Source: an uncultured Planctomycetota bacterium (GTDB lineage: Bacteria; Planctomycetota; UBA1135; GCA-002686595). From it: a DNA stretch of 64,000 bases. Shown here one piece after another: positions 45,235-60,889 of this stretch. The position numbers and the translations under genes were made by a program. The notes below the pieces were generated by a model that ran no database searches, had not been told where the DNA came from, and worked only from the letters and a program-made list of their open reading frames with translations. The stretch covers positions 62,001 through 126,000 of the forward strand of contig CAIYPP010000103.1 of NCBI GenBank assembly GCA_903928115.1, written 5' to 3'. The stretch's first letter is position 1, and the number at the start of each line of letters is the position of its first letter.

Positions 45235-46326
45235 ATGGGAGCTCCCACTTCGCTGCGCGACGCCGACGTGCTCGTGGCCAACCTGAGCCGCGGCTATGCC
45301 GGCGTGGCGGCGACCATGCGCGCGCTCGTTCCGCTGCAGCAGCGCGAGCGCGCTGTCGCCTTCCTCGATCGCGCGGGGATGGGGATCGTCGGCACGCTCT
45401 CGCTCGGTGAGGTCGTGCGCGGCGGCTGGAGCACGCCTCCCAATGGCTCGGCGCGCATCTGGCACTCGCGGCGCGCGCCCGAGCAGATGTTCGGAGTCTT
45501 CTTGCGCGACGTGCTGCGCCAACGCTGGAAGCTCGTGTACACGAGCCCGACGCCACGGCGCCATGGCGCGTTCTGGCGCTTCTTCGTGAATCGCTCGGAC
45601 GCGGTCATCGCGGTCACGCCGCGCGCCGCGGAGTTCCTCGACTGGCACTCGGCCGTCGTGCCGCACGGCGTCGATGTCGAGGAGTTCAAGCCGCCCGAAG
45701 ACCGCGCGGCGGCGTGGCGCGAAGCCGGACTCCCCGGCGAGTTCGGCATCGGCATCTTCGGCCGCATTCGCCCGAGCAAGGGAACGGACCTCTTCATCGA
45801 AGCGGTGTGCGAGGTGCTGCCGTGCCACCCACGCTTCACCGCAGTCCTCACGGGCCTGTGCCAGCCGGGCGAGGAGCGCTGGCGCGACGCGCTCGTCGAG
45901 AGAGTGCGCGCGGCGGGGCTCGAACGTCGCGTCGTCTTCCTCGGCGACCTTCCCTTCGCGCAGATCCGTCGCTGGTACCAGCGCGTGAGCCTGTGCGTCG
46001 CCGTCCCGCGCTCCGAAGGCTTCGGACTCACGCCGCTCGAAGCGATGGCGAGCGGTGCCGCCGCGCTCACCTCCCGCGAAGGCTGCTTCCCCGAGCTCAT
46101 CGTCCCCGGCCACAACGGCGACATCGTGTCCACGGGTGACGCCCGCGCACTCGCCGCCGCGCTCGACCGACTGCTCTCCGATCCCTCCGCGCTCACCGCC
46201 ATGGGCCAGCGCGCCCGCGCGCACGTCGTCGAGCACTGGTCCATCGCCCGCGAAGTCGCCGGCATCCACGCGCTCTACGACGCCACCCTGACCGGCACCG
46301 CGCCACGCACGGTGCACGGAAGTTGA
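45235..46326 (+). CDS. Glycosyltransferase, GT4 family
   Basis: A 363-residue GT-B glycosyltransferase. Seen: VLVANLSRGYAGVAATMRAL, RIWHSRRAPEQMFGVFLRDVLR, KLVYTSPTPRRH, VVPHGVDVEEFKP, GIFGRIRPSKGTDLFIEA and the donor-site PRSEGFGLTPLEAMASGAAAL with the EX7E glutamates. The set resembles a mannosyltransferase-type family found in polysaccharide clusters, but the sugar is not known. ATG at 45235 is chosen by comparing with the family start; longer frames begin with TTG inside or after the terminator. Confidence 0.83.
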   Translation: MGAPTSLRDADVLVANLSRGYAGVAATMRALVPLQQRERAVAFLDRAGMGIVGTLSLGEVVRGGWSTPPNGSARIWHSRRAPEQMFGVFLRDVLRQRWKLVYTSPTPRRHGAFWRFFVNRSDAVIAVTPRAAEFLDWHSAVVPHGVDVEEFKPPEDRAAAWREAGLPGEFGIGIFGRIRPSKGTDLFIEAVCEVLPCHPRFTAVLTGLCQPGEERWRDALVERVRAAGLERRVVFLGDLPFAQIRRWYQRVSLCVAVPRSEGFGLTPLEAMASGAAALTSREGCFPELIVPGHNGDIVSTGDARALAAALDRLLSDPSALTAMGQRARAHVVEHWSIAREVAGIHALYDATLTGTAPRTVHGS

Positions 46327-46880
46327 GAGCGAGGCCGAGCACCGCGTTGACCCGCTCCTCTCGTGGTTCGAGATGGGCTCGTTCCGGTGCCTGAAGCTGC
46401 GGAGCGTGCCTGCCTTCGAGGTCTCCATGCGGTCCGCCGCGCCCAACCGCCCCTCGACCATCGGGTCCAGCCGCCTTGCATGGAACGAGTCCGCAGCGGG
46501 CCGTCTCGGGGTTCACCACGGTCGCGGAGATCGCCAAGAGGGAGAGCTCTTGTTGGATCTCTCGACTTCCCTCGAATTCGAAACGGAAATAACGACACCG
46601 AAAAAAGACGAACGGACAGCCGAATGCGCGATTTCTGCTTGGAGCAAAGCAGAAGAGAACTGCGGCTTGTGGGGAGGGGTAGCGTGTCAGCGTCCGTCTC
46701 GCTCCAACGCCGTGCGCGCCTCGGAATCAACCGTTTCGCAGCGCAATGGCATTTCGAAATCACTCGGTCGATCCGGCGGCGCCTGCACGGAGCCGCGCGG
46801 AGCGCCACAGAGACCTTCTTGGCAAGTTGGCGACGATGCCGCGGGTCATTTCCCCGCGCAGTGAGACGCGTTGCGCGCGA
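46327..46880. other. Gene-free 554-base spacer between convergent genes
   Basis: No coding sequence is convincing. Part of it (about 46540-46680) is less G+C-rich than its surroundings. A perfect 8-bp hairpin TTCTGCTT/AAGCAGAA with 6-base loop is at 46633-46654. Confidence 0.5.
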
Positions 46881-49370
46881 TCACGGCGTCCGCGCGGCGC
46901 GGAAGCTCACCCTGTCGACGAGGCGGGCGGGGTAGCGCAGCGATGCTCGGCAGAAGCCTCCATCGAAGTCGAAATAGCTGCCGCGCAAGATGCGTTGTTG
47001 GCCAGAGGCCGGGCCTGCGGGATCGACCTGAGCCTGTCGCGTGTAGTCGGCATACCAATCGCCCACCACTTCCCACGCGTTGCCGATCATGTCGTGGAAT
47101 CCCAGTCCGTTGGCGGCCTTTCCTCCGACGGGATTCAGGCGGGCGGGCGAGTTGCCGCGGTGCCAAGCGATCTCGTCGAGCGGCCCCGAGCGCGGCTGGT
47201 CCACTCCTGCGCGGCAGGCGTACTCCCATTCCGCTTCGGTGGGCAGGCGCAAGCCGGTGCTTCGCGCGAACATCTCGATCTGATTCCACGACGTCACGAT
47301 CGGCGCATCGGGCGCCGTCGGGCGCGAGTCGCGTTCCCTGTCGGGGCCGCCCGCGGTGGTGGTGATGGTGAACGTGCCATCTTCACCGCGGGTGGTCGTC
47401 GAGCTGCTCACGACGATGTTGCCCTGTTGGTCGCGCAGCTCCGTTCGTCCCACGAGGACCAAACCGCCGCCGAGAGGCGCCGACGTGTCTTGGGCGGGCT
47501 GCTCGCGCTTGCCCGCGAACGCTGCTTCGGAGCGCGCTCGGTCCATCACTTGGCTCCATTGAGCTTGGGTGACCTCGTAGCGGCCGAGGTAGTAGGGCCG
47601 AGAGATCGTCACCGGGTGCGCGGGCACTTCATTGGCCCGCGCGTCTTCGTCCCCGGGGGACTTGCCCATCATGAACGAGCCAGACGGAACGAGGAGCATT
47701 TCGATGCCCGAAGAGCGGTCCTTCACGCGCCACGGCAGGCCCGTCGCGGAGAGCGCGGCGCGCAGGGCGGGGTCGGTCACCACCTTGGGATCGACGGCCT
47801 GCTCCAGCACTTCGCACCACGACAGATCGACGTCCTCTGTTCTGCGTTCAACGGGCGTGATCGTCGCAGGAACCGCCTGCGCAGGAGTTGCGGGCGCGAC
47901 CACTCCGACCACGGGCTCGACGCGCGGCCGAGCCTCGCCGCCAGTCGAGTCGCCGTAGAGCGATGTGGCCGCAGGACTGTTCTTCAGGAACGATGCGAAC
48001 CACACACGATCCAAGTCGTCGATGCGGGCACGCAGCCGCGCGCGCAGCTCGGCAGGGTCATTCAGGTCACCCGGCAAGATCATCATGCCGTTGCGGTTCA
48101 CCGGCAGAACATCCTCGAGCAAGCGCAGGCCGAAGCGATACATCGTGAGCGCCCCACGCTCATCCAGCTCACGCGCTTCGTCCAGCATGTCCGCCAACGC
48201 GTACGTCGCGTTGTACTCCGCTTCCTTCGCCGCAGACAGCTCCTTGACGTCGCGCTCCTTGTAAGCCTGAGATCCGAGGAACTTGTTCTCCAAGAGCGGG
48301 GGAAGCATCACGCGGTCGACGACATGGACCAAGCTGCCTCCGACGGGGATGTCACCGGCGATGATGCGAGCCTTGAACGGCTCTTCGGACTCGCGGTCCC
48401 ACGAGGTGCGCAGCGTGTAGACGAACACCATGCCGTTGCAGAGCACGTCGAGCACGAATCGGTCGCCCTCGTTCGAGATCATCGCCGGCGCCAGCTCGCG
48501 GTCGTTCAAGAGGAAGCCGAAGGGCTTGAGCTCCGGCACGGCATGCCAATCGAGCAGCGCACGCAAGGCTTCGCGGTTCGTCGGATCGAGCAGACGCGTC
48601 AAGTCCTTCGGGTCGATGCGCGCAAAAGCGGCGTTCGTCGGCACGAACACGGTCCAATTGCTCATGGGCTCGGGCTGCGCCCAATCTTGATCGGCGCCGC
48701 TGGCCTCGACTGCGGCAAGGAAGGTCGAGTAGCGGCCATCTGGTGCGGCGCGCAAGGCCGCGAGCAGGCTCGCGGGGGCCGCCTCCTTCATGGCCATTTT
48801 CATGCTGTTTTCCGTGTACGCCTTGGCGGGCAGCAAGACGCGATCGATCGCGTGAATCCAACCGTTCTTGCACCGCAGGTCGGCTGCCACCACCGTGGCC
48901 TCGCCGATCTTGAAGCCGCTCCGGTTGGCGCTCACCGCCAGACGCTCTCCGCTCGACATGCGCGCCATTTGCGGCGCGTCGATGTTGCCGACCTCGTACG
49001 ACACGAGCCGACCCTGCACGACGTGGAGCGCGAGGATGGCGCGCAACTTCGCCTTGTTCTCCGGCCGCAGTAATTCCTGCAGCGTGCCCGTCGGCAACGA
49101 AGCGAAGGCCTCGTCGCTCGGAGCGAACACCGTCATCGGCCCGTCACCTTGGAGGAGTTCGACCATGTCGGCAGCTTCGAGCGCCGCCACCAGCGTGCGG
49201 AAGCCCGCTCGCTTGGCGGTTTCTACGATGTCTTCGACGGAAGTCGCCTGACCGCGCTGCACCGGCGGGCTCGCCACGAATCGGACATTCGACTGCGCCG
49301 CGAGCGAAGGCGCGAGGAGCGCGGTCCCAAGAAAGGCCGTTGCGAGGGCGAGGGGCAAGCGTCGGAACAT
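46881..49370 (-). CDS. Secreted FAS1-FAS1-SUMF1-type fusion protein
   Basis: An 829-residue exported protein. Signal MFRRLPLALATAFLGTALLAPSLAAQ; two fasciclin (FAS1) domains at about 40-185 (GPMTVFAPSDEAFASLP, LHVVQGRL, AIDRVLLP) and 195-350 (NWTVFVPTNAAFARI, LLDWHAVPE, HVVDRVMLPP); a linker; and a C-terminal formylglycine-generating-enzyme fold (VPSGSFMMGKSPGDEDARANE, LPTEAEWEYACRAG, GNAWEVVGDWYADY, RILRGSYFD). At the catalytic region it reads FCRASLRYP, keeping one cysteine but not the second of the CxxSYC pair, so it is probably not a sulfatase-activating enzyme. Role in adhesion is inferred. Confidence 0.87.
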   Translation of the reverse strand: MFRRLPLALATAFLGTALLAPSLAAQSNVRFVASPPVQRGQATSVEDIVETAKRAGFRTLVAALEAADMVELLQGDGPMTVFAPSDEAFASLPTGTLQELLRPENKAKLRAILALHVVQGRLVSYEVGNIDAPQMARMSSGERLAVSANRSGFKIGEATVVAADLRCKNGWIHAIDRVLLPAKAYTENSMKMAMKEAAPASLLAALRAAPDGRYSTFLAAVEASGADQDWAQPEPMSNWTVFVPTNAAFARIDPKDLTRLLDPTNREALRALLDWHAVPELKPFGFLLNDRELAPAMISNEGDRFVLDVLCNGMVFVYTLRTSWDRESEEPFKARIIAGDIPVGGSLVHVVDRVMLPPLLENKFLGSQAYKERDVKELSAAKEAEYNATYALADMLDEARELDERGALTMYRFGLRLLEDVLPVNRNGMMILPGDLNDPAELRARLRARIDDLDRVWFASFLKNSPAATSLYGDSTGGEARPRVEPVVGVVAPATPAQAVPATITPVERRTEDVDLSWCEVLEQAVDPKVVTDPALRAALSATGLPWRVKDRSSGIEMLLVPSGSFMMGKSPGDEDARANEVPAHPVTISRPYYLGRYEVTQAQWSQVMDRARSEAAFAGKREQPAQDTSAPLGGGLVLVGRTELRDQQGNIVVSSSTTTRGEDGTFTITTTAGGPDRERDSRPTAPDAPIVTSWNQIEMFARSTGLRLPTEAEWEYACRAGVDQPRSGPLDEIAWHRGNSPARLNPVGGKAANGLGFHDMIGNAWEVVGDWYADYTRQAQVDPAGPASGQQRILRGSYFDFDGGFCRASLRYPARLVDRVSFRAARTP

Positions 49371-49887
49371 GACGGGACTCGGGGGGATCGTTGGCTTTTT
49401 GACCGAAGGCGGCCTCGATGGCCACCACGCGAAGTCATACGCCCCGATACCCACGCTCGGATGCATGCGCCTCCAGCATGGCCGTGGCTTTCCGACCGCG
49501 GCTTCCGACCCGCTGCCCCCCCTGCCGGCGCCTGCGCTCCAGCCCGGCAAGCCCATCGCCGTTGCTCGGAAGCCCGCTCTTCACGGCCGAACGACGCGAG
49601 TGTTCGACGCGGCACCTAGACCTCGCCCTCCTCGCGGTGGAGCTCCTAGAGATTCGAAGGCGCGTTCGTCGTCCGCCTTGCCGCACACGACCGATGACGT
49701 GGCGATCCAAGCTGCATCGTCATCGCGCGCCTCGCCGGACGCGGCAACGTGCGGTGGTACGAGATCTAGCTCGGGCTCGAGTCCGCGCTCTTCAGTCCCA
49801 CGCCGCGCCAACTTCCATGCCTCTCCTCCGTGCGTGTCCGCATGGTCGCAATCGGTCTCAGCACCGACTGCGTCGACGGCGGCAGCG
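49371..49887. other. Gene-free 517-base spacer
   Basis: Between two minus-strand secreted-protein genes. No coding frame has recognised features on either strand and no repeat was seen. It would hold the promoter of the FAS1 gene, but no convincing box was found. Confidence 0.4.
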
Positions 49888-51597
49888 TCACGGTCCGACG
49901 AGAAACTCGAGCGCGCCCGTCAGGTGCGTCGTCTTGGGGCTCGGCGGATCGCGGTACCAGCCTTGCGTTTGCACCAGCTCGCCCACGGTGAGCGCGGCCC
50001 CGAGCGCGGAGGGATTGGCGGCGCGGTACGCGAGCCAGTCGAACACGAGGAAGCCGTTGCACGAGCCTGCGGTGCCCGCGGTCGTGAGCGCGATGCAACG
50101 CTGGGTCGGCGCCTTGACGCACAGGAAGCTCGAGCTGGCGCCCCAAGCCGTCACCTGTCGGCCGGCGAGCCCGTAGAAGAAGAGCCCCGTCTTCTGACCT
50201 TCGAGGCCGCTCGTCGTGAGCTGGAATCCCGACGTGGCCGAAGCGCGCGGTTCACCGCTCCATCCGATCACGGGCACGCAGCCGTTCGAGCTCGTGCCCG
50301 CGGTGCAGTAGCGCGCAACCCAAGGCGTGCCCGAGTAGACGATGACGCGCCCGTTGTTGTTGAGCCCCGGCCCGTCGAAGAACGGCTCGCCCACGGCGAA
50401 GTCGCGCACGCCGTCGTTGTTGAGATCGCCCGCGTCGGCGACCGCGGCGCCGAGCCCGTTGTTGATCGACGTCCCGTAGATGGTGATCAAGAGCTCGTCA
50501 TTCGTGGGGTCGTAGACGCGCGCGAGCCCGAGCGCGGAGCTTCCGACGAGGATCTCCCGACCGACGAGATTGTCGATGTTTCCGAGCACCGCCACGCTGT
50601 TCCCAAGGTGCTCTCCCGCCGACAGTCCGCGCGCCGTGAAGACCGGCAAGCCGTTGGTGCCGCGCAGCGCCCGCACGAGGCCGGAATCCGTGGCCCCGAC
50701 CGAATCCGCCCCGCGCGCGCCGACGAGCACGTCGCTCGTGCCGTCGTTGTCGACGTCGAGCTGACCGGCGAGCGCGCAGCCGAATTCGTCTCCGACCGTG
50801 TCCCCTGACGCCGTCCACAGTTGCGTCACCGATGCCGTGGTCGAGAGACCGCTGAAGGCGCGCACCGCGCCGTCACCGCCCTCGCCGGGAGCGCCGACGA
50901 CGAAGTCGCGCTGGCCATCGCCATTCAGGTCGCCCACTCCCGCGACGGCATAGCCAAGATTGTCGAAGCCGCCGGTGCCAAAGCGCCGCAGGAGCAACCC
51001 ACCGTTGATGCCCGAGTAGGTGGAGAAGTATCCGGCATCGATGAGCACGCCGTTGTCGCCGTCGGGAGCGCCGACGATCACGTCCCCGAAGCCGTCGCCG
51101 TTCGTGTCGAACCCGCCGTCGACGGAATTGCCGAAGCGATCGCCGGCGGCGATTCCATAGAACGTGTGGAGGTTCGCGCCCGTCGCGCCGGAGAACACAC
51201 GCGCCATCCCGGTCTGCAAGCCGCCTCCGTTGATCGCGAGCGGAGCTCCGACGATCACGTCGCGCACTCCGTCGTTGTCGACGTCCCCGCCGATCGCGAC
51301 GGCCTGTCCGAACTGATCACCGGAGTTGTCGCCCGCCTTCTGCTGCAGCACGCCGCCGGTCCGCCCCGAGATCACCTGCACCACGCCGTTGTCGGTCTTC
51401 CCTGCCGTGTCGGCCCGCGGCGTGCCGATCACGAGGTCGTCGAAGCCGTCGCCATCGAAGTCGTAGCCGCCGGCGACCGAGGCACCGCGCGAGACGTCGG
51501 AGTTGGGAGCTTCGTTGGAGAGAATCTCGGTCTGAGCCGCGGCCGAAGCCGCGAGCGACAGCGCCGCGAGCACGATCGTGAGGGACTTGGAGGTCAT
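49888..51597 (-). CDS. Secreted FG-GAP repeat protein with planctomycete C-terminal module
   Basis: A 569-residue secreted protein. Signal MTSKSLTIVLAALSLAASAAAQ, then six or seven FG-GAP repeats of the integrin-alpha propeller type, each with a calcium-binding DxDxDG-like core (DFDGDGFDDLVIGTP, DVDNDGVRDVIVGAP, DTNGDGFGDVIVGAP, DLNGDGQRDFVVGAP and others) that close a seven-bladed beta-propeller. The last about 140 residues repeat the module of the 36047 gene (YCTAGTSSNGCVP, GLEGQKTGLFFYGL, FLCVKAPTQR, QGWYRDPPSPKTTHL). Extracellular binding or adhesion is inferred. A possible -10 (TAGCAT) is 83 bases upstream. Confidence 0.9.
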   Translation of the reverse strand: MTSKSLTIVLAALSLAASAAAQTEILSNEAPNSDVSRGASVAGGYDFDGDGFDDLVIGTPRADTAGKTDNGVVQVISGRTGGVLQQKAGDNSGDQFGQAVAIGGDVDNDGVRDVIVGAPLAINGGGLQTGMARVFSGATGANLHTFYGIAAGDRFGNSVDGGFDTNGDGFGDVIVGAPDGDNGVLIDAGYFSTYSGINGGLLLRRFGTGGFDNLGYAVAGVGDLNGDGQRDFVVGAPGEGGDGAVRAFSGLSTTASVTQLWTASGDTVGDEFGCALAGQLDVDNDGTSDVLVGARGADSVGATDSGLVRALRGTNGLPVFTARGLSAGEHLGNSVAVLGNIDNLVGREILVGSSALGLARVYDPTNDELLITIYGTSINNGLGAAVADAGDLNNDGVRDFAVGEPFFDGPGLNNNGRVIVYSGTPWVARYCTAGTSSNGCVPVIGWSGEPRASATSGFQLTTSGLEGQKTGLFFYGLAGRQVTAWGASSSFLCVKAPTQRCIALTTAGTAGSCNGFLVFDWLAYRAANPSALGAALTVGELVQTQGWYRDPPSPKTTHLTGALEFLVGP

Positions 51598-51784
51598 GGG
51601 GGGCGAGCGCGAAGCCTGGGGAAGAGTCGAGAGACGCCCCGAAACGGCGGGATTGCCGCTCTGAGCCTTCGAAGTCCCGATGCTAGCGACCCGCGCCGAA
51701 ACCGGGCCCCCCCTCCCGCCGAGTGCCTCAGGCCCGAGCCCGCCGCGGATCCGGCGCTCAGCGCTCGAAACCCATCGGAGGCGG

Positions 51785-52068
51785 ACAGAAACTCCAAGCG
51801 GAGGATTTCCGCCGGATGCGGTCGTCGTCGACCGCGCCCGCAGGCTGGGTGCGGGGCTGCTCCGTCAAGTCGGGCCGTCGCAGTCCGCCTTGGACCTCGA
51901 TGGGCGGCTCGGCGAGCCGAGCGAGGCGCGCTCAGGCCGTGAATCGAGCGCCTTGGGAACGAGCGGGCCGACTCGACGGCGCTGTTGGCGGGCGAGGAGT
52001 GTGCTCGAAGGAGCAACGACAGCGGCTATGGCGAAGTCGGGCACATCGCGCGCGCGCGCGGCGGGAAG
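51785..52068. repeat. Long imperfect direct repeat, copy A
   Basis: Aligns collinearly with 53219-53504 over its whole length, with shared runs such as AGAAACTCCAAGCGGAGGA, AGTCCGCCTTGG and GGCGAGCCGAGC. The start contains a small inverted repeat GCGGA/TCCGC. Coding is not convincing in any frame. Confidence 0.85.
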
Positions 52069-52195
52069 GCTCGGTGGGCAGCCCGAGATGCGCGAGCATC
52101 TTGCGCGCGACGACGGGGTCGGAGGTTCTTCGTGGCGATTCAGTCCCGGGCCGCGCTGCGCTCGCGTCCGGTGGCGCGTGTCGAGGTCGACCGCC

Positions 52196-52201
52196 TAGAC
52201 T
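52196..52201 (+). promoter_or_regulatory. Possible -10 box (TAGACT)
   Basis: TAGACT 9 bases before the ATG at 52211, the same hexamer as before the two sulfatase genes. Confidence 0.25.
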
Positions 52202-52210
52202 CGAGTGCGC

Positions 52211-53020
52211 ATGGCGTTCCCCGAAGCGAATGTCGAATGGCTCAAGGTTCGCGCCGGACGAGTCTCTGTCGTCGCTGGACTCGTGCTCGCGGGTTGCGGC
52301 GCGGCTCCAAAGGCCGAGCGGACGGCGTATTCCGAGTCCGACGTGCTCGCTGGCGCGACGATGCTCGAGAAGCTGAGCCGCGTGTCGCAGCTCGACCAGC
52401 TGGAGGACACGGACGACGATGCGGCGCGTTGTGGGTGCGCGGCGGCGCTCAACGCGTTTCTCGCGAGCGGTGGCACGTGGGAAGAGCTGGCGGAGCGCCT
52501 CGGGCTGGCGAAGGAGCCGACGCAGGAGAGCGTGCATCGGCTGCAGGAGCGGCTCTACGACGAGGCGAACGTCGACGGCGAGCCCGGGATCTACGGCGGC
52601 TGCAGGCCGCTGTACGACGCGGCGCGCAATGTCGTCGGGTGGGAGCGCAAGGAAGGCGACGAGGCGCAACGCATGTTCGAGGCCGTCGGGCTCGAGACGT
52701 GGGCACTCTTCGGTCGCAGCGAGGCCACGCTCAACGATCGCCGCGAGGCCGTGCTCGCCTACTTCCGCGATCGACCGCTCGGCGCGCTGATCGTCGGCGT
52801 GAACGAGGACATGGACTCCGGTCGCAGCCTGCCCGTCGCGCCGGGCACGTTCGCGAACCACTACATCGTCGTGCTCCAGCGCGACGGCGCCTTCCTGCGC
52901 CTCGACACCTGGGCCGAGCTCGGAGCCAAGACGCTGCATCCGATGACGGACACCGAAGTGCGCGAGCTCGTCTTCGAGACACCGATCACGCTGCTCGCGA
53001 CCGCGCTCGCGCAGCGCTGA
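52211..53020 (+). CDS. Lipoprotein with possible papain-like Cys/His site
   Basis: A 269-residue lipoprotein (signal VSVVAGLVLAGC after a basic stretch). No family recognised with confidence. A cysteine-rich helix start RCGCAAALNAFLASGG near residue 75 and a later NHYIVVLQRDGAFLRLDTW near 220 resemble the Cys-helix and His-strand-Asp arrangement of papain-like or C39-like folds. Both flanks carry copies of a long direct repeat, which suggests movement or duplication. ATG at 52211 starts the signal; a GTG lies 6 bases upstream. Confidence 0.72.
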   Translation: MAFPEANVEWLKVRAGRVSVVAGLVLAGCGAAPKAERTAYSESDVLAGATMLEKLSRVSQLDQLEDTDDDAARCGCAAALNAFLASGGTWEELAERLGLAKEPTQESVHRLQERLYDEANVDGEPGIYGGCRPLYDAARNVVGWERKEGDEAQRMFEAVGLETWALFGRSEATLNDRREAVLAYFRDRPLGALIVGVNEDMDSGRSLPVAPGTFANHYIVVLQRDGAFLRLDTWAELGAKTLHPMTDTEVRELVFETPITLLATALAQR

Positions 53021-53218
53021 CCGCACCCCGCCCGGAAATCCCGCTGCGCGAATCGAGTCCACGCACCAGCTCCGCGTCGCCTCCTCGTCGCCTCTCTCCG
53101 CGCACGATGCGCAGCGGAACCACGACCGTCGGAATCTCTCAGACAGAAGCCCCGGTCCGAGCGTGCCGAGAGTCGATCGACCCGCGCCCTGCGACGTCTT
53201 CGTCGATGTCCCCTGCGG

Positions 53219-53504
53219 ATAGAAACTCCAAGCGGAGGACTTCCGCCGGAGGCGGTCATCTTCGACCGCGCAGGCAGGTTTGGTGCGGCGCGATTCCGGC
53301 ACATGGTGTCGCCGGAGTCCGCCTTGGGCCTCGGTGGACGGGCTGGCGAGCCGAGCAATGTGCGTTCACGCCGTGGCTTTGGCGCTTTGGGAACGCGGTC
53401 ACGAGCTCGCCGGCGCGGGAGGAGGACGAGGAGCGCGTTTGAAGGAGCAAGGAAAAAAGCTCAGGCGAAGTCGAGCAGATCGCGCAAGCGCGCCGGCGCG
53501 GGCC
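53219..53504. repeat. Long imperfect direct repeat, copy B
   Basis: Second copy of the 51785-52068 repeat in the same orientation, 1434 bases downstream. It lies in the 577-base gene-free spacer (53021-53597) between the lipoprotein and the convergent HNH gene; nothing else was recognised in that spacer. Confidence 0.85.
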
Positions 53505-53597
53505 GCTTTCGTCAAGGACAGGTGAGGCGCGGTGAAGCACGACCCGGCACGTGCGAGCGGTGCCTAACCCGGCGCGCGGGCCACACTTCGCGCGAGT

Positions 53598-54716
53598 TCA
53601 CGCGCCCAGCAGGGCCTCGCGCACCAGCGCCGTATCGATCGGTACAAACGTGCCCCGTGCCTGCCACAGCCGCGCGGATTGGGGCAGGTGCAGGTACACG
53701 GACCGTGCCACCGACAATGTCCGCTCCGGTTCGTGGGGCCAGTCGCACTCCGATGCGGCATCGCGCAGCCCCTTCGCCTCGTCGTCCTGGCGGCGACGCC
53801 AGCGCGTCAGGTGGTCGGCCGCCGCCAGGTAGTGGCGCTTGTCGTTGTTGCAGCCGTGGTGCGCCAGCACCAGATTGGCCAGGCTGTCGTCTGGATAGCG
53901 CGCCCACGGGATGAAGTGGTCCACTTCGGTCTTCGCGCCCGTGAGCGAAAGACGGCAGTAGAAGCACGCACCTGACTGCAGCTCGTGCAGTGCCCTGCGA
54001 ATCGGGGCGGCGGGCGTGCGCTGCGTGTCGAACAGGAAGGCCTCGATGCCGGGGTCGGACAGCACGCTGCGGTTGTAGCGCAGGATCCGATCCGCGAAGT
54101 GCCGACGCAGCAAGGGTCGCAGGAGCGGCCCGAACTGCACGAGGTGCTCGGCGGCGCCGTCTAGGATGAGGATGCGGTTGTCGAAGCCACGACCCGTGCG
54201 CTGATAGTCGCGGACGGCGCCCTGCGTGATGTGCTCGTCCCAGGCGATGCGGTAGATGAACGGCTCGTCTGTGTTCCCGAGGCGCTGCAGTCGAGGCAGC
54301 GGCATCTCGATCAGCTTCCATTCCACCTTCTCCACCAAGCGCTCGTACGCACTGGCATCAGCCGCGCGTGCCTGGTGCAGGCTGGCCGTGGCGGCATCCA
54401 AATGTCGCTCGCGGAACTTGCGCACCAGCGACACGATCTCGGCCTGCCCGGTATTGCTCTGTCGCAGCACCAGCGACGCATTGCCTTCTACAAACTCGCG
54501 GGTCTGGGGCCAGTAGATCTGCACCACCTTGTCGGCGAGCTGCCGCGTGGTCAGCATCGTCGTCGGCGCGCCCGATGCCTCGGCCGTCTCGATGCACAGG
54601 TCCAGCAACCCAAGCACCACAGCGAACTTGTACGTGGTGCTGTAGCTGGCCTCGTCGAGCAGCGTGAGCAGCCGCTCCGCGAAAGCTACAGCGCCAGTAT
54701 CGGCCGCCGCGCTCAC
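53598..54716 (-). CDS. HNH endonuclease domain protein
   Basis: A 372-residue protein with a C-terminal HNH nuclease domain: CFYCRLSLTGAKTEVDH, FIPWARYPDDSLANLV and HHGCNNDKR give a zinc-binding CxxC, the catalytic DH and the closing N/C residues. The N-terminal 230 residues contain a helical region (YSTTYKFAVVLGLLDL, KVVQIYWPQTREFVEGN) of unknown family that is typical of larger HNH proteins seen near defence genes. The GTG start overlaps the HIT gene stop by 4 bases (GTGA), so the two are translationally coupled. No restriction partner is present. Target unknown. Confidence 0.85.
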   Translation of the reverse strand: MSAAADTGAVAFAERLLTLLDEASYSTTYKFAVVLGLLDLCIETAEASGAPTTMLTTRQLADKVVQIYWPQTREFVEGNASLVLRQSNTGQAEIVSLVRKFRERHLDAATASLHQARAADASAYERLVEKVEWKLIEMPLPRLQRLGNTDEPFIYRIAWDEHITQGAVRDYQRTGRGFDNRILILDGAAEHLVQFGPLLRPLLRRHFADRILRYNRSVLSDPGIEAFLFDTQRTPAAPIRRALHELQSGACFYCRLSLTGAKTEVDHFIPWARYPDDSLANLVLAHHGCNNDKRHYLAAADHLTRWRRRQDDEAKGLRDAASECDWPHEPERTLSVARSVYLHLPQSARLWQARGTFVPIDTALVREALLGA

Positions 54717-55123
54717 GCGTCCTCCCAGTAGCGTGCCCGCTCGGGGATTACGCTGCGCACCCCGCCGCGTGGGTCCGGCACGTCGCCCACGTAGCGCGGA
54801 ATCACGTGCAGATGCAGGTGCAGAACCGTCTGCCCCGCCGCCACGCCGTCGTTGATGCCGATGTTGTAGCCGTTGGGCGCGTGGTCCTGCTCGATCTGCT
54901 GCCGCGCCAAAGCGATGCAGCGAGTGAGTGCCTCCCGCTCCTGTTCGGTGGCCTCCGTCCACCCCGCTACATGCCGCCTAGGCACGATCAGCGCGTGTCC
55001 CGGACTCAAGGGAAACCTGTCCCACAAGGCGAGCACGAGGTCATTCGTGAATATCACGCGTTCAGGGCCGACGGTGCAGAACGGACAATGTTCGGAAGTG
55101 GATTCGGAAGTCACGTTCGGCAC
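54713..55123 (-). CDS. HIT family protein
   Basis: A 136-residue histidine-triad nucleotide hydrolase or transferase. Seen: an N-terminal CPFC that usually binds zinc, FPLSPGHALIVPRRHV, NDGVAAGQTVLHLHLHVIPR with the HxHxHxx motif. The start is GTG at 55123. It is the first gene of a tightly coupled pair with an HNH nuclease, which makes a nucleotide-processing role in the same pathway plausible. Spacing to the next gene upstream (divergent) is 165 bases. Confidence 0.9.
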   Translation of the reverse strand: MPNVTSESTSEHCPFCTVGPERVIFTNDLVLALWDRFPLSPGHALIVPRRHVAGWTEATEQEREALTRCIALARQQIEQDHAPNGYNIGINDGVAAGQTVLHLHLHVIPRYVGDVPDPRGGVRSVIPERARYWEDA

Positions 55124-55288
55124 CGGAACACGACCATCATGCCACTGACCTCAATGCCGAAGCCACCGTCGAAGTGTGCCGAGTGGGAACCGCCGAGCCG
55201 CGACTCGCATGCGCGCATCGGGGCGGCGGATTTTGCGCAACTGGGGGGGTCGTGGCTGGTTGGTGGGGATGGGAGACTGGGCATCGCT

Positions 55289-57334
55289 ATGAAGATGATG
55301 GTCGCGTTGGTGCTGGGTTGGATGTTGCAGGCGGAGGCGCCGCGCTTTTTGGAGCCGGAGCTTGCGCCGTGCGAGGCTCCGGCGCAGGCGGCGTTGGAGC
55401 GGGCGGCGGCGTACAGCGAGGAGTACGCGGGGCGAGCGGTGCTCGTGATGAAGGATGGGGCGGTGATCTTCGAGCGCTATGCGAACGGCTGGAGCGCGGA
55501 GCGGCCCCATGCGTTGGCGAGCGGTACGAAGAGCTTTGCGGGCATCGTCGCGGCGGCGGCGGTGAGCGACGGGTTGGTGAAGCTCGACGAGCTCGTCGTC
55601 GACACGCTCGTCGAATGGAAAGACGATCCGCGCGCGGCGCGCATGACCGTGCGCAACTTGCTCGATCTCTCGTCGGGGCTGGAGCCCGAGAGCGAGCTGC
55701 TCGGGCGCTCGGGCTACGGCGTCAAGGACCTCGGTCCGCTGAATGACATCGCGGGCCGACTGCGCGGCGGCGCGCGCGAGAAGGCGCCGGAGGATTGGTA
55801 CGGCGCGGTGCTCGGCGTTCCGATCTCGCGCGAGCCGGGCACGGTCTTTCGCTATGGACCGTCGCACTTCTACGCGTGGGGCGCGCTGCTCTCGCGCAAG
55901 CTCGCGGCGTCCGAGCGCGCGGAGAAAACCTATTGGGACTACATGCGGGCTCGCGTGCTGCTTCCCGCGCAGGTCGACATTCCGAAGTCGCGCTTCGTGC
56001 TCGATCAAAAGGGTCAGCCGAACTTGCCGGGCGGCGCGCACCTCACCGCGCGCGAGTGGGCGCGCTTTGGCGAGTTTGTGCGTCAGGCTTGCACGGTCGA
56101 GCGCGCGGGCAAGGACGGAGCGAGCGAGCGCGTCGCGCTCGTCGATCGCAACGTGCTCGAGCTGTGCTTTGCGCCAAGCAAAGCCAACGCGCAGTACGGC
56201 CTGACGTGGTGGCTGCTCAACGGCGCGAGTGGCACGGGCGCGCAAGTCGCCGACGGTCCGCTGACGCGGCAGGCCGCGCAGCTCGACGCGATTCGCGATG
56301 CGGACGGCAAGATCCTTCCGATCGCCATGGCGGCGGGTGCTGGCAAGCAGCGGCTGTATCTGCTGCCGAAGCACGGGCTCGTGATCGTGCGCCTTGCGGA
56401 GATGTCGCGCGGTGGCACGGACTTCGACGACACGCGCTTCGTCACCACGTTGCTCGCGCTCGATGCAAAGAAGAGTGCGCAGCCCCCGAGTACCGCGAGT
56501 GCGATCTCATGGACCACGCCGGTCGCGCGCGGCCCGCGCATCGACTATCGCACGTTCGAGAGCGCTGCCGCGAAGGCGACCGTGAGCTACCACGTGTACA
56601 CGCCGCCGCAGTACGACACGGAGCGCGAGCGGCGTTTTCCGACGGTGTATTGGCTGCACGGCAGCGGTGGCGGCGGCGCCGGAGTCTCGCAGGCGGCGCG
56701 CGCATTCGGCGAGGCGATTGCGGCAGGGCGAATGCCGCCGACGATCGTGGTGTTCCCCAACGGACTCCCCGAGGGCATGTGGTGCGACTCGCACGATGGA
56801 CGCACGCCCGTTGAGACCGTGGTCGTGAAAGAGCTGCTCCCAGAGGTCGACCGCGTCTACCGGACGATCGCCTCGCGCGAGGGGCGGATCGTCGAGGGCT
56901 TCAGCATGGGTGGCTATGGCGCGGCACGGCTCGGCTTCGCGCACCCCCAGGTGTTCGGCGCGATCTCGATGCTCGCCGGTGGGCCGCTGCACCCCGACTT
57001 CGAGGTGCGGCGCGCTTCGCCCACGAGCCGCGACGAGCTGCTCGCCCGCGTGTGGGGCGACCTCGAGCGCTACCGCGCGGCCAGTCCGTGGCGGTTGGCG
57101 GAGCAGCACCTCGAGACGGCGCGCAGCCAGCCGCTGCGGATCGTCGTGGGGGAGCGGGACGAGACCTTCGAGTTCAACCGCGACTTCCACGAGCGGCTCC
57201 TCGCGCTGGGGCTCCCGCACGAGTACGTCCCGCTCCCGGGCGTCGCCCATGACCCCTTGGCCCTGCTCGCCGCCATGGGGGACCGCTTCTGGACCTTCCA
57301 CCAGCGCGTCTTCACCCCGCCCGAAGGCCGCTGA
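55289..57334 (+). CDS. Beta-lactamase-like / esterase fusion
   Basis: A 681-residue protein. A short N-terminal hydrophobic segment may be a signal (MMVALVLGWMLQAEA). Residues about 20-370 form a serine beta-lactamase/class C-like fold: SGTK at 78-81 (SxxK), YGPSHFY and a later conserved QYGLTWWLLNG. Residues about 395-680 form an alpha/beta-hydrolase of the esterase D or feruloyl type: WLHGSGGGGAGVS, nucleophile GFSMGGYG with Ser539, and GVAHDP with the histidine. The fusion suggests two linked hydrolytic steps outside the cytoplasm; substrate unknown. ATG at 55289 precedes the signal. Confidence 0.83.
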   Translation: MKMMVALVLGWMLQAEAPRFLEPELAPCEAPAQAALERAAAYSEEYAGRAVLVMKDGAVIFERYANGWSAERPHALASGTKSFAGIVAAAAVSDGLVKLDELVVDTLVEWKDDPRAARMTVRNLLDLSSGLEPESELLGRSGYGVKDLGPLNDIAGRLRGGAREKAPEDWYGAVLGVPISREPGTVFRYGPSHFYAWGALLSRKLAASERAEKTYWDYMRARVLLPAQVDIPKSRFVLDQKGQPNLPGGAHLTAREWARFGEFVRQACTVERAGKDGASERVALVDRNVLELCFAPSKANAQYGLTWWLLNGASGTGAQVADGPLTRQAAQLDAIRDADGKILPIAMAAGAGKQRLYLLPKHGLVIVRLAEMSRGGTDFDDTRFVTTLLALDAKKSAQPPSTASAISWTTPVARGPRIDYRTFESAAAKATVSYHVYTPPQYDTERERRFPTVYWLHGSGGGGAGVSQAARAFGEAIAAGRMPPTIVVFPNGLPEGMWCDSHDGRTPVETVVVKELLPEVDRVYRTIASREGRIVEGFSMGGYGAARLGFAHPQVFGAISMLAGGPLHPDFEVRRASPTSRDELLARVWGDLERYRAASPWRLAEQHLETARSQPLRIVVGERDETFEFNRDFHERLLALGLPHEYVPLPGVAHDPLALLAAMGDRFWTFHQRVFTPPEGR

Positions 57335-57685: not shown

Positions 57686-57700
57686 CCTCGGCACCCTTCC

Positions 57701-58669
57701 ATGGCCCACTACCTCGTCACCGGCGGCGCCGGATTCATTGGCTCGCACATCGCGAGCGGGCTCGTCGAGCGCGGCCACCGCGTGCGCGTCTTCGACAACC
57801 TCTCGACGGGGCTGCGCGAGAACCTCGCGCACCTGCCGAGTGGAGACGCGGGCAGCGGAGCGCAGGTCGAGCTGTGGGTCGGGGATCTGTGCGATGAGCG
57901 CGCGGTGAGCGCGGCCTGCGCGGGCGTCGACGGGGTCTTCCACGAAGCCGCGCAGGTCTCGGTGCCGCAGAGCGTCGCGCAGCCGATTCGCTCCTACGAA
58001 GTGAACGTGATGGGCACGCTGCGGCTGCTCGAAGGCTGCCGCACGCAGGGTGTGAAGCGCGTCGTCTTCGCCGCGTCTTCGGCGGCCTATGGCGATACGC
58101 CGACGCTCCCCAAGGTCGAGACGATGCCGCCTTCGCCGCTTTCTCCGTATGCGGCCGGCAAGGTGGCGGGCGAGCACTTGCTCGCGGCCTATGCGCACGT
58201 GCACGGGATGCACACGGTCGCGCTGCGCTACTTCAACGTCTTCGGCCCGCGCCAGCGCGACGACAGCCCGTACACCGGCGTGATCGCGATCTTCGCGCGC
58301 GCGCTGCTCGAAGGCCGCGCGCCGACGATCTTCGGCGACGGGCTGCAGACGCGCGACTTCAACTTCGTCGGGAACGTCGTGCACGCCAACCTGCTCGCCA
58401 TGGAGCGCGACGTGCCGCCCGGCAGCGTGATCAACATCGGCGCAGGCGAGTCGATCTCGCTGCTCGAGCTCTATCGCACGATGGCGGCCGAGCTCGGCGT
58501 CACGCTCGAGCCGCGTTTTGCGCCGCCGCGCGAGGGCGACGTGCGCGACTCACTCGCGTCGCTGGAGCGTGCGCGCGCGCTGCTCGGGTACGAGCCCGAG
58601 GTTCGCTGGCGAGAGGGTCTCTCGCGCACGCTCGCGTGGTACGCGCGGCAATCGGTCGGCCGCGCGTGA
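57701..58669 (+). CDS. NAD-dependent sugar epimerase/dehydratase (extended SDR)
   Basis: A 322-residue extended short-chain dehydrogenase acting on nucleotide sugars, for example a UDP-glucose 4-epimerase of the WbpP type. Seen: TGGAGFIGSHI for NAD binding, DNLSTGLRENL, catalytic YxxxK as SPYAAGKVAGE, ALRYFNVFGPRQ and FGDGLQTRDFNFV. Precise activity (epimerase or dehydratase) cannot be read. It would feed polysaccharide or glycan synthesis. Confidence 0.9.
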   Translation: MAHYLVTGGAGFIGSHIASGLVERGHRVRVFDNLSTGLRENLAHLPSGDAGSGAQVELWVGDLCDERAVSAACAGVDGVFHEAAQVSVPQSVAQPIRSYEVNVMGTLRLLEGCRTQGVKRVVFAASSAAYGDTPTLPKVETMPPSPLSPYAAGKVAGEHLLAAYAHVHGMHTVALRYFNVFGPRQRDDSPYTGVIAIFARALLEGRAPTIFGDGLQTRDFNFVGNVVHANLLAMERDVPPGSVINIGAGESISLLELYRTMAAELGVTLEPRFAPPREGDVRDSLASLERARALLGYEPEVRWREGLSRTLAWYARQSVGRA

Positions 58670-58678
58670 GTCCGGTGC

Positions 58679-58894
58679 TCAGCCCGCTTGGCGGGTGAAG
58701 CGGAAGAGGTCCGGCCAGCTCCACTTGCGGGCGCTGAAGCCCTCGTCGCGGGTGAGGACGAGGACGTAGTCGCAGTAGGGCTCGGGGCAGGCGAGCAAGA
58801 GCGCCGTCGCGCCTTCCTCGGGGCGACCTTGGGTCGGGCGCAGCGGCTGGTAGCAGCGGGGGCAGGCGTGGACGGTTTCGGCGGCGGGGGTCAT
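58679..58894 (-). CDS. Small zinc-ribbon protein
   Basis: A 71-residue protein with CPRC and CPEPYC pairs about 25 residues apart, a zinc ribbon that probably binds Zn or nucleic acid. The C-terminal region is aromatic and basic (ARKWSWPDLFRF). No family recognised. It is convergent with the epimerase gene, 9 bases apart. Confidence 0.65.
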   Translation of the reverse strand: MTPAAETVHACPRCYQPLRPTQGRPEEGATALLLACPEPYCDYVLVLTRDEGFSARKWSWPDLFRFTRQAG

Positions 58895-59209
58895 GGCTTG
58901 GGGGCGTCTCGGTCGGAGGGAGGCGCTCCCGTGGGCTCGGATCCCCGGGGTGTGCGGGGGAGTGGCTCCGTGGACCCAGACTTGGCGCTCGGCGTCGACC
59001 TGCGACGGCTTCGGCACTTTCGTCGAGGCCCCTGAAGACGCCGTGAAGATGGGCTCAAAGTCGGTCCCAAAGCGGGGTTGGGGCGGTGAGCCGGCGGGGG
59101 GATCCCGCAGGGCCGTCGGCGTGGTGTACGCTGTGGCGCTCAATATCCAGCCCGCAAGTCCTCGCGGCTCCTTCCGTGAGGCCGAAGCGGCGCCAACCAC
59201 CACTACGCC
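58895..59209. other. Divergent spacer, pckA promoter region
   Basis: 315 bases between the zinc-ribbon and pckA genes. A possible -10 box TACGCT is at 59127-59132, 77 bases before pckA; nothing else was recognised. Confidence 0.35.
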
Positions 59210-60889
59210 ATGACGACCACGACCCAGGCCCCGCAGGCCGACTTCAAGGCCGAGCTCGAGAAGCTCTTCGGGCTCAAGAGCGTCTCCTACAAGTACAACC
59301 TCTCGAAGGACGAGCTGTTCCACGAGGCGATCGCGAACGACCGCGGCCGCGTGAAGAAGGACGGCCCGAGCAACGCCCAGAAGGCGTTCGCGACCAAGCT
59401 CGGGACCAAGGGTCCGCTGGTCTACTACACCGACCCCGACTGCACGGGTCGCCGCGTCAAGGACACCTACGCGGTCTGCTGGCCCGAGGTCGAGGGCGAG
59501 ATCTGGTGGAAGGACGACGTCCAGCGCTACGACCCGGCCAAGTACGAGGCCCTGCTCGCCCGCGTCGTCGCGCACCTCAACGACAAGAAGGCGAACCTGT
59601 ACGTCAAGGACGTCTTCATGGGCGCGGACCCCGAGTTCGCGGTGCCCTACCGTTTCGTCGGCGAATACGCGACGCACGCGATGTTCGCCCACAACATGTT
59701 CCCCAAGGATCTGCCGGGCGTGAAGGACGTCGCGGCGCGCCGCTGGACGATGCTGAACGTGCCGTCCTTCGTGTGCGTGCCGGAGCGCGACGGCTGCCGC
59801 GCCGAGTGCGCGGTCATCATCGACATCAAGAACAAGATCTGCCTCGTCGCGGGCCGCATGGACTACTGCGGCGTCGTGAAGAAGACGATCTTCACGGTCG
59901 GCAACTACCTGCTGCCCAAGCAGGGCCGCCTCTCGATGCACTGCTCGGCCAACGTCGGTCCGCGCGGTGACGGTGCGATCCTGTTCGGCCTCTCGGGCAC
60001 GGGCAAGACGACGCTCTCGGCCGACCCCGACCGCCGCCTCATCGGCGACGACGAGACGATCTGGAGCGACAACGGCCTCTGCAACCTCGAAGACGGCTGC
60101 TACGCCAAGCTGATCGACCTCAGCAAGGAAGCGGAGCCCGTGATCGCCGCCGCGCTCTCCAAGCCGGGCACGATCATCGAGAACGTCCCGCCGCTGCCGG
60201 GCAAGACGATGGCCGAGTGCGACCCGCAGGAGCTCGACCTGACCGACAAGTCGATCACCGAGAACACGCGCTTCAGCTACCCGCTGTCCGCCAACCCCAA
60301 CGTGATGCCGGGCTCGCGCGGCCCGCACCCGGAGACGATCGTGCTGCTCACGGCCGATGCGTTCGGCGTGCTGCCGCCGGTGGCGATCCTCGACGCGGAG
60401 CAGGTCATGTACCACTTCGTCTCGGGCTTCACCGCCAAGCTCGCGGGCACCGAGATGGGCGTCACCGAGCCGAAGGCGGCCTTCTCGGCCTGCTTCGGCG
60501 CGCCGTTCATGAGCCACAAGCCGCCGGTCTACGCCAAGCTGCTCGCCGAGAAGATGCAAAAGCACAAGGCGCGCTGCATCCTGCTCAACACGGGCTGGAG
60601 CGGCGGTCCCTTCGGCGTCGGCAAGCGCATGTCGATCCAGCACACGCGCGCGCTGCTCAACGCGGCGCTCGCGGGTCAGCTCGACAACGTGCCGACCGAG
60701 CTGCACCCCGTGTTCAACCTGAAGATGCCGAAGTCCTGCCCCGGCGTTCCGGCCGAGGTCCTGAACCCGCGCAACACGTGGACGGACAAGGCGGCGTACG
60801 ACGCCGCGGCCACCAAGCTGCGCGACATGTTCAAGAAGAACTTCGACGACAAGGGCTTCGCTTCGCTCGGCATCAAGCCGGCGATGTGA
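59210..60889 (+). CDS. pckA: Phosphoenolpyruvate carboxykinase (ATP)
   Basis: A 559-residue ATP-dependent PEP carboxykinase, converting oxaloacetate plus ATP to PEP, CO2 and ADP in gluconeogenesis. Seen: GLSGTGKTTLSADP, the kinase-1 (P-loop) motif of the ATP type; IGDDETIWSDNG, the metal-binding Asp-Asp; GCYAKLIDLSKEAEP; and MSIQHTRALLNAALAG. The GTP-type signature is absent. The length is normal. A long GC hairpin follows the stop after 44 bases. Confidence 0.97.
   Translation: MTTTTQAPQADFKAELEKLFGLKSVSYKYNLSKDELFHEAIANDRGRVKKDGPSNAQKAFATKLGTKGPLVYYTDPDCTGRRVKDTYAVCWPEVEGEIWWKDDVQRYDPAKYEALLARVVAHLNDKKANLYVKDVFMGADPEFAVPYRFVGEYATHAMFAHNMFPKDLPGVKDVAARRWTMLNVPSFVCVPERDGCRAECAVIIDIKNKICLVAGRMDYCGVVKKTIFTVGNYLLPKQGRLSMHCSANVGPRGDGAILFGLSGTGKTTLSADPDRRLIGDDETIWSDNGLCNLEDGCYAKLIDLSKEAEPVIAAALSKPGTIIENVPPLPGKTMAECDPQELDLTDKSITENTRFSYPLSANPNVMPGSRGPHPETIVLLTADAFGVLPPVAILDAEQVMYHFVSGFTAKLAGTEMGVTEPKAAFSACFGAPFMSHKPPVYAKLLAEKMQKHKARCILLNTGWSGGPFGVGKRMSIQHTRALLNAALAGQLDNVPTELHPVFNLKMPKSCPGVPAEVLNPRNTWTDKAAYDAAATKLRDMFKKNFDDKGFASLGIKPAM

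Follow-up and report, generated by a model that had tools for sequence, protein, structure and literature searches.

A planctomycete lipoprotein-like gene between two oriIS-type 3' ends of an ISCR/IS91-family element

Rolling-Circle Elements and Gene Capture

ISCR-type elements move antibiotic-resistance genes in hospital bacteria, and IS91 prefers a tetranucleotide target. The transposition of IS91 follows a one-ended rolling-circle logic (PMC6218425). For ISCR1, the oriIS end has been published as GTGGTTTATACTTCCTATACCC, and six tandem ISCR1 regions in complex class 1 integrons have been described on one plasmid (PMC13023784). Helitrons are rolling-circle HUH elements as well, in which read-through captures flanking DNA (PMC4778049).

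The locus described here lies in a window (the whole 64-kb stretch of DNA that was analysed) from the genome of a planctomycete, where two long repeats surround a lipoprotein-like gene. Both repeats are firmly identified as oriIS-type 3' ends of an ISCR/IS91-family element. The element family is of an ordinary type; it represents a new, distant subfamily, and its arrays are unusually extensive.

The Repeat Pair and Its Outer End

Copy A (51781-52063, minus strand) and copy B (53215-53498) are 77% identical over 286 aligned columns (E about 1e-56), with four gap openings in the alignment, the same orientation and an offset of 1434 bp. This bears out a sequence-only reading of the same DNA, which had described two collinear direct copies around one gene at a spacing of 1434. 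Copy A is an oriIS-type 3' end with its exact ori end at 51781, as indicated by a profile match (E 3.5e-60) and by the alignment of its terminus with more than 50 copies. Copy B, which by profile match extends to 53504, is a full-length oriIS-type 3' end on the minus strand (53215-53504; repeat comparison and profile match) with its ori end at 53215. The third copy that the earlier reading had asked for is absent from the 64-kb window, where the next best match has an E of about 0.002, and further copies lie elsewhere in the genome. That reading had staked its proposal on a genome-wide search for more copies, and the search found the repeat at 14 places at E<=0.01, most of them off the contig of the window; the two copies of the window are clearly related. 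Several of the 14 matches are located at or near the ends of short contigs, as is expected where repeats break assembly.

More than 50 copies from several genomes share one exact outer end, consisting of two hairpins followed by GGAGTTCCTATCC(G/C)C (in the longer aligned form, ...GGCGGAAGTCATCCGCTTGGAGTTCCTATCC(G/C)C), with unrelated DNA beyond. When searched as a degenerate pattern, this end is present in 9 of the 81 family genomes, versus none of the 81 for the reversed control. The commonest ends match the ISCR1 22-mer at 9 to 10 of its last 12 positions. In the window, the terminal two-hairpin regions of copy A (51781-51835, minus strand, ending GGAGTTTCTGTCCGC) and copy B (53215-53269, minus strand, ending GGAGTTTCTATCCGC) are more decayed, with 7 and 8 matches, respectively, to the ISCR1 12-mer. 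No conserved motif was found in 62 flanks outside the ori end, where a mild preference for C is limited to the first position.

The Transposase

The repeat is found directly 3' of a transposase frame, or of its remnant, on four contigs of the same genome (C76, C115, C79 and C82) and also in other genomes. The most complete transposase, on C79, has 443 residues from the first listed start and is cut at the contig end. It carries the Pfam domains Y2_Tnp and Zn_Tnp_IS91 (zinc-ribbon/HUH), and it matches the NCBIfam models ISCR_clade_Ia (3e-96, 322.9 bits, below the cut-off of 925) and transpos_IS91 (8e-19, 67.9 bits, below the cut-off of 125). Since both scores are below the curated cut-offs, the protein belongs to a distant subfamily and is a relative, rather than a member, of the named ISCR clade. 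Its nearest plasmid relatives, ISVsa3-family transposases among them, are about 41% identical. The assignment to the IS91/ISCR family follows from the IS91-type zinc-binding domain of this HUH transposase, from an ori end located 3' of the transposase gene, from hairpins of dyad symmetry and from an exact terminus, and the affinity to ISCR is indicated by an ISCR1-like oriIS terminal sequence (family consensus 9-10/12).

The window itself holds only a 39-codon remnant of this gene. This decayed C-terminal piece (52046-52150, minus strand) corresponds to about residues 404-442 of the C79 copy, with 56% identity over 39 residues and an E of 6e-6 when searched in the window or of 0.0013 genome-wide. 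The earlier statement that neither copy codes convincingly holds for the repeat proper, but it overlooked that copy A continues into this transposase C-terminus; beyond copy B, no transposase codons are detectable. Neither an intact transposase nor a terIS was found in this genome, the copies seen being 5'-truncated or cut by contig ends, and among them no complete 5' end was delimited. Separately, a relative represented by a single contig (G070:C1) has no fewer than 11 copies of a transposase with about 42% identity to the one described here. Most of these are free of stops, and intact elements of a sister subfamily may be obtainable from this relative.

Arrays in Related Genomes

On the contigs examined, the repeat profile identifies 89 merged copies. 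These occur singly, in pairs and in arrays, and they do not always border one gene. Neighbouring copies have the same orientation in 47 cases versus the opposite one in 8 (p about 4e-8 under a coin-toss model), a count made on contigs picked for holding matches, not for orientation, and with related genomes pooled. The longest arrays are those of G079:C33, G011:C69, G008:C32 and G009:C67. Array copies have a common 3' end and a differing 5' truncation point within the transposase, the spacers between them are irregular in size, and the intervening genes vary (HNH, HIT, CobW, peptidyl-arginine deiminase-like, permease, FG-GAP, kinase, DNA methylase and others). On C76, C79, C82 and C115 of this genome, the spacers have a GC content of 0.58-0.635 versus 0.68 for the window. 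A partial literature search brought up no evident published description of such arrays in Planctomycetota, and an earlier report may exist.

Two further loci of this genome deserve mention. On C82 there is a second pair of 5'-truncated transposase-plus-repeat units (L019 9907-10591 and 12241-12901), 86% identical over 688 bp, in the same orientation and 2334 bp apart, with an ORF of 249 aa between them. On C76 (L015 4533-6080), cargo with a GC content of 0.58 is enclosed between ori ends and comprises a type II DNA methylase followed by an ORF with no assigned family, which possibly form a restriction-modification pair.

The relatives are metagenome bins, several of them from one lake sampling series. 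Some bins that belong to different genera contain near-identical contigs (G008:C90 and G027:C139 are one such case), and exact termini were also seen in bins labelled Actinomycetota, Nitrospira and Gemmatimonadetes (L111, L114, L120), which may reflect horizontal spread or mis-binned contigs. Because such cross-genus contigs and bins of distant phyla may be binning errors, the host range of the element is uncertain.

Duplicated and Shared DNA Beside the Ori Ends

Immediately upstream of one ori end in G080:C64 is a 371-bp stretch that recurs with 96% identity before the next ori end, and a source for both stretches can be recognised a few kilobases away, apparently the 3' part of a feoB-like gene. 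The three stretches lie at L096 2320-2667, 5629-5999 and 8912-9282; the two duplicates are each joined to an 88-bp element end, and the source copy has no IS end. In G008:C32, a 444-bp stretch upstream of an ori end is likewise duplicated, with 90% identity. The element part attached to the duplicates of these two contigs amounts to only about 77-88 bp of the end. Moreover, in G079:C33, short pieces of this feoB-like gene lie right against element ends. The duplication of host DNA together with ori ends fits one-ended transposition and would also fit tandem duplication.

Cargo is also shared between genera. A peptidyl-arginine deiminase-like lipoprotein gene is present with 90% nucleotide identity, and in opposite orientation, in arrays of two genera (L089 10902-12005 in G009 and L092 8914-10083 in G079), and a 2.74-kb segment is 82% identical between G080:C25 and G008:C110. 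Core DNA of the genera that share cargo is 66-79% identical, below both values. The position of the 2.74-kb segment, on the ori end's outer side, is one that the simplest model does not predict, and thus shared descent or the exchange of a whole array segment may also explain this case.

It could be argued that the ISCR-type remnants are genuine and that the arrays, together with the pair in the window, nevertheless arose by homologous recombination or tandem duplication of old copies, the lipoprotein gene being a bystander. The long homology common to all copies could recombine, the upstream duplicates of G080:C64 and G008:C32 also follow from tandem duplication, and this genome has yielded no intact transposase, yet this history is judged unlikely in view of units that differ in both truncation point and cargo. 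The cargo found in opposite orientation in two genera and the feoB 3' ends whose source copy has no IS end speak against it as well, and so does the homology to the relative G010, described below, which breaks at the transposase remnant.

The Island and the Lipoprotein Gene

The genes that flank the two copies at a distance are adjacent in three relatives (G011, G008 and G007), where they are separated by about 170 bp to a few hundred bp, and the window therefore carries an island of about 9.0 kb (46309-55337), which includes both copies and is absent from those relatives. It contains a fasciclin/FGE gene, an FG-GAP gene, copy A, the lipoprotein gene, copy B, an HNH gene and a HIT gene. Since no ISCR-like end was found at the island edges, 46309 and 55337, the whole island need not be the work of this element. 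The HNH endonuclease gene (53598-54962, minus strand; Pfam HNH_4), on the transposase side of copy B, is possible cargo, with a relative beside another copy in G008:C90. It is paired with the HIT-domain gene (54713-55123, minus strand; Pfam HIT), whose frame overlaps it as listed, and the same pair occurs in G008:C90.

Some observations concern the surroundings of these genes. The HNH-HIT pair adjoins element ends in two genomes (window 53598-55123; G008:C90, L155 12157-13642), with 43-50% protein identity, and shows weak matches to defence HNH and HIT models. In G007:C15 (L104 4751-9169), two element ends are found beside a block orthologous to window 57700-60887, near the island site, which is possibly a recurrent insertion place. 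Finally, window 61375-62998 (L022 18375-19998) shares 77% identity across 1.6 kb with cargo that immediately follows an ori end, on its downstream side, in G027:C139 (L164 5240-6860), so that the cargo genes include one that lies, in the window, beyond the island.

The lipoprotein-like gene between the copies (52205-53020, plus strand) is an ORF of 271 aa. It has no assigned family, with no significant match in Pfam, NCBIfam, PADLOC or PDB sequence searches. The sequence-only reading had noted a possible Cys/His active site in its product, on which the single-sequence structure model, with a pLDDT of 44, is of too low a quality to bear. A single homologue was found among 81 family genomes, in G010, and none outside the genus in 392 sampled phylum genomes. 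The segment 52152-53024 (plus strand; blastn limits and junction alignment) is 91% identical to an unrelated locus of G010 and is read as the cargo of copy A. Homology to G010 begins at 52152, two bases past the end of the transposase remnant at 52150, and part of the spacer 53025-53214 is without counterpart in G010. We infer that the copy A junction marks the capture of this segment. No repeats were found near the lipoprotein locus of G010, nor a counterpart in this genome of the flanks of that locus, which would represent the reciprocal empty site. The ordinary divergence between the two genomes corresponds to 73-90% identity; the 91% of the lipoprotein segment is near it, so there is no need to regard the gene as recently acquired from a foreign source, and transfer is not evidenced by divergence. 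The gene is differently located in the two genomes, and it was presumably the elements that moved this particular gene.

A composite transposon, in which the lipoprotein gene was mobilised by directly oriented insertion sequences, one on each side of it, would account for direct repeats flanking one gene and for a single homologue at a different locus in G010. This arrangement is very improbable, given that only 3' ends are present at A and B, with no complete insertion sequence on either side, that arrays of more than two ends are common and that the transposase is of the IS91/ISCR kind.

Hairpins and the Nature of the Terminus

In the terminal hairpins of the aligned copies, 90% of cells are paired versus 31-52% when the partner is slid. 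As single-stranded DNA, both copies of the window fold better than shuffles (z -4.0 for the terminal region of copy A and -3.2 for that of copy B), and the two regions are further supported by alignment and pair counts. The compensatory changes that had been looked for in the folded copies did not emerge clearly: for most measures, pair changes are no commoner than in shuffles, and the hairpins hence rest on conservation and folding. The repeat has no Rfam match, even at E<=1, and no relatives of the 3' end were found in the plasmid DNA and viral contigs searched.

The conserved hairpins and the non-coding character of the repeat had led to the suggestion of a conserved regulatory RNA, or another functional non-coding element, on both sides of the gene. 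This idea can be largely set aside in the light of the Rfam result, of pair changes not above shuffles for most measures and of a repeat placed 3' of transposase genes; moreover, conservation ends at one exact DNA point in all contexts, and hairpins at such a sharp DNA junction are consistent with a site recognised by a transposase. A cassette array of the integron kind, with recombination sites of unusual length, is likewise very improbable, ordered same-orientation repeats with varied genes between them notwithstanding, as transposase codons and an IS terminus form part of the repeats, the spacers are irregular in size, and the terminus has GTTCCTA (by inspection of the alignment) and not the GTTRRRY core of attC sites.

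A Proposed Mechanism of One-Ended Capture

On the evidence of sequence comparison, it is very probable that a single IS91/ISCR-family rolling-circle element has multiplied in this planctomycete lineage and that both repeats are its decayed 3' ends, each with an oriIS. An HUH transposase acting in trans would nick at an intact ori end, from which copying would proceed through the remainder of the transposase gene into the adjoining DNA. On insertion, the ori end of the product would be precise and its far end arbitrary, and repeated rounds would give rise to units made of an ori end, a transposase remnant and a passenger. The window would hold two such units in the 9-kb island, one formed by copy A and the lipoprotein segment, the other by copy B and the HNH-HIT segment. 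The mobile or duplicating cassette of the sequence-only reading was thus right in kind, and can be named as ISCR/IS91-type oriIS ends with cargo between them.

From a wider perspective, it may tentatively be proposed that freshwater planctomycetes of this family possess a chromosomal gene-capture platform, in which an ISCR-type rolling-circle transposase, acting in trans on minimal ori ends (as short as about 75-90 bp), gathers unrelated genes into long same-orientation arrays. Such a platform could be an integron-like gene store that has come about in another way, and it might show ISCR capture in a natural setting outside antibiotic-resistance plasmids. The lineage offers a comparative record of one-ended capture in nature, with many copies per genome, exact ori ends and variable far ends, as well as host fragments whose capture can be traced to a source and relatives in which the site is empty. 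Furthermore, a long non-coding repeat around a gene is explained without a new class of RNA or element.

Comparison with Known Systems

The closest likeness is to ISCR elements (ISCR1, ISCR2/ISVsa3), with which the planctomycete element shares a zinc-ribbon HUH transposase assigned to the same families in NCBIfam and Pfam, an ori end 3' of the transposase and, probably, the carrying along of adjacent genes; its terminal motif, TTCCTATNCSC, is like the oriIS end of ISCR1. It differs from the ISVsa3 family in a transposase with about 41% protein identity that scores below the NCBIfam cut-off. Unlike ISCR, it resides on bacterial contigs of freshwater planctomycete bins and not on resistance plasmids, and its copies are mostly 5'-truncated and set in arrays. 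With IS91 sensu stricto it has in common a Y2_Tnp transposase and, presumably, the one-ended rolling-circle logic, whereas no target motif was found outside the planctomycete ori end in the 62 flanks and the transposase scores closer to the ISCR model than to that of IS91. Helitrons, eukaryotic and equipped with a helicase domain, provide an analogy of mechanism only. The tandem ISCR1 regions of complex class 1 integrons resemble the planctomycete arrays in that same-orientation ISCR copies are repeated with genes between them; however, those are amplified copies of one resistance region, whereas the planctomycete units have differing cargo and ends truncated to different lengths.
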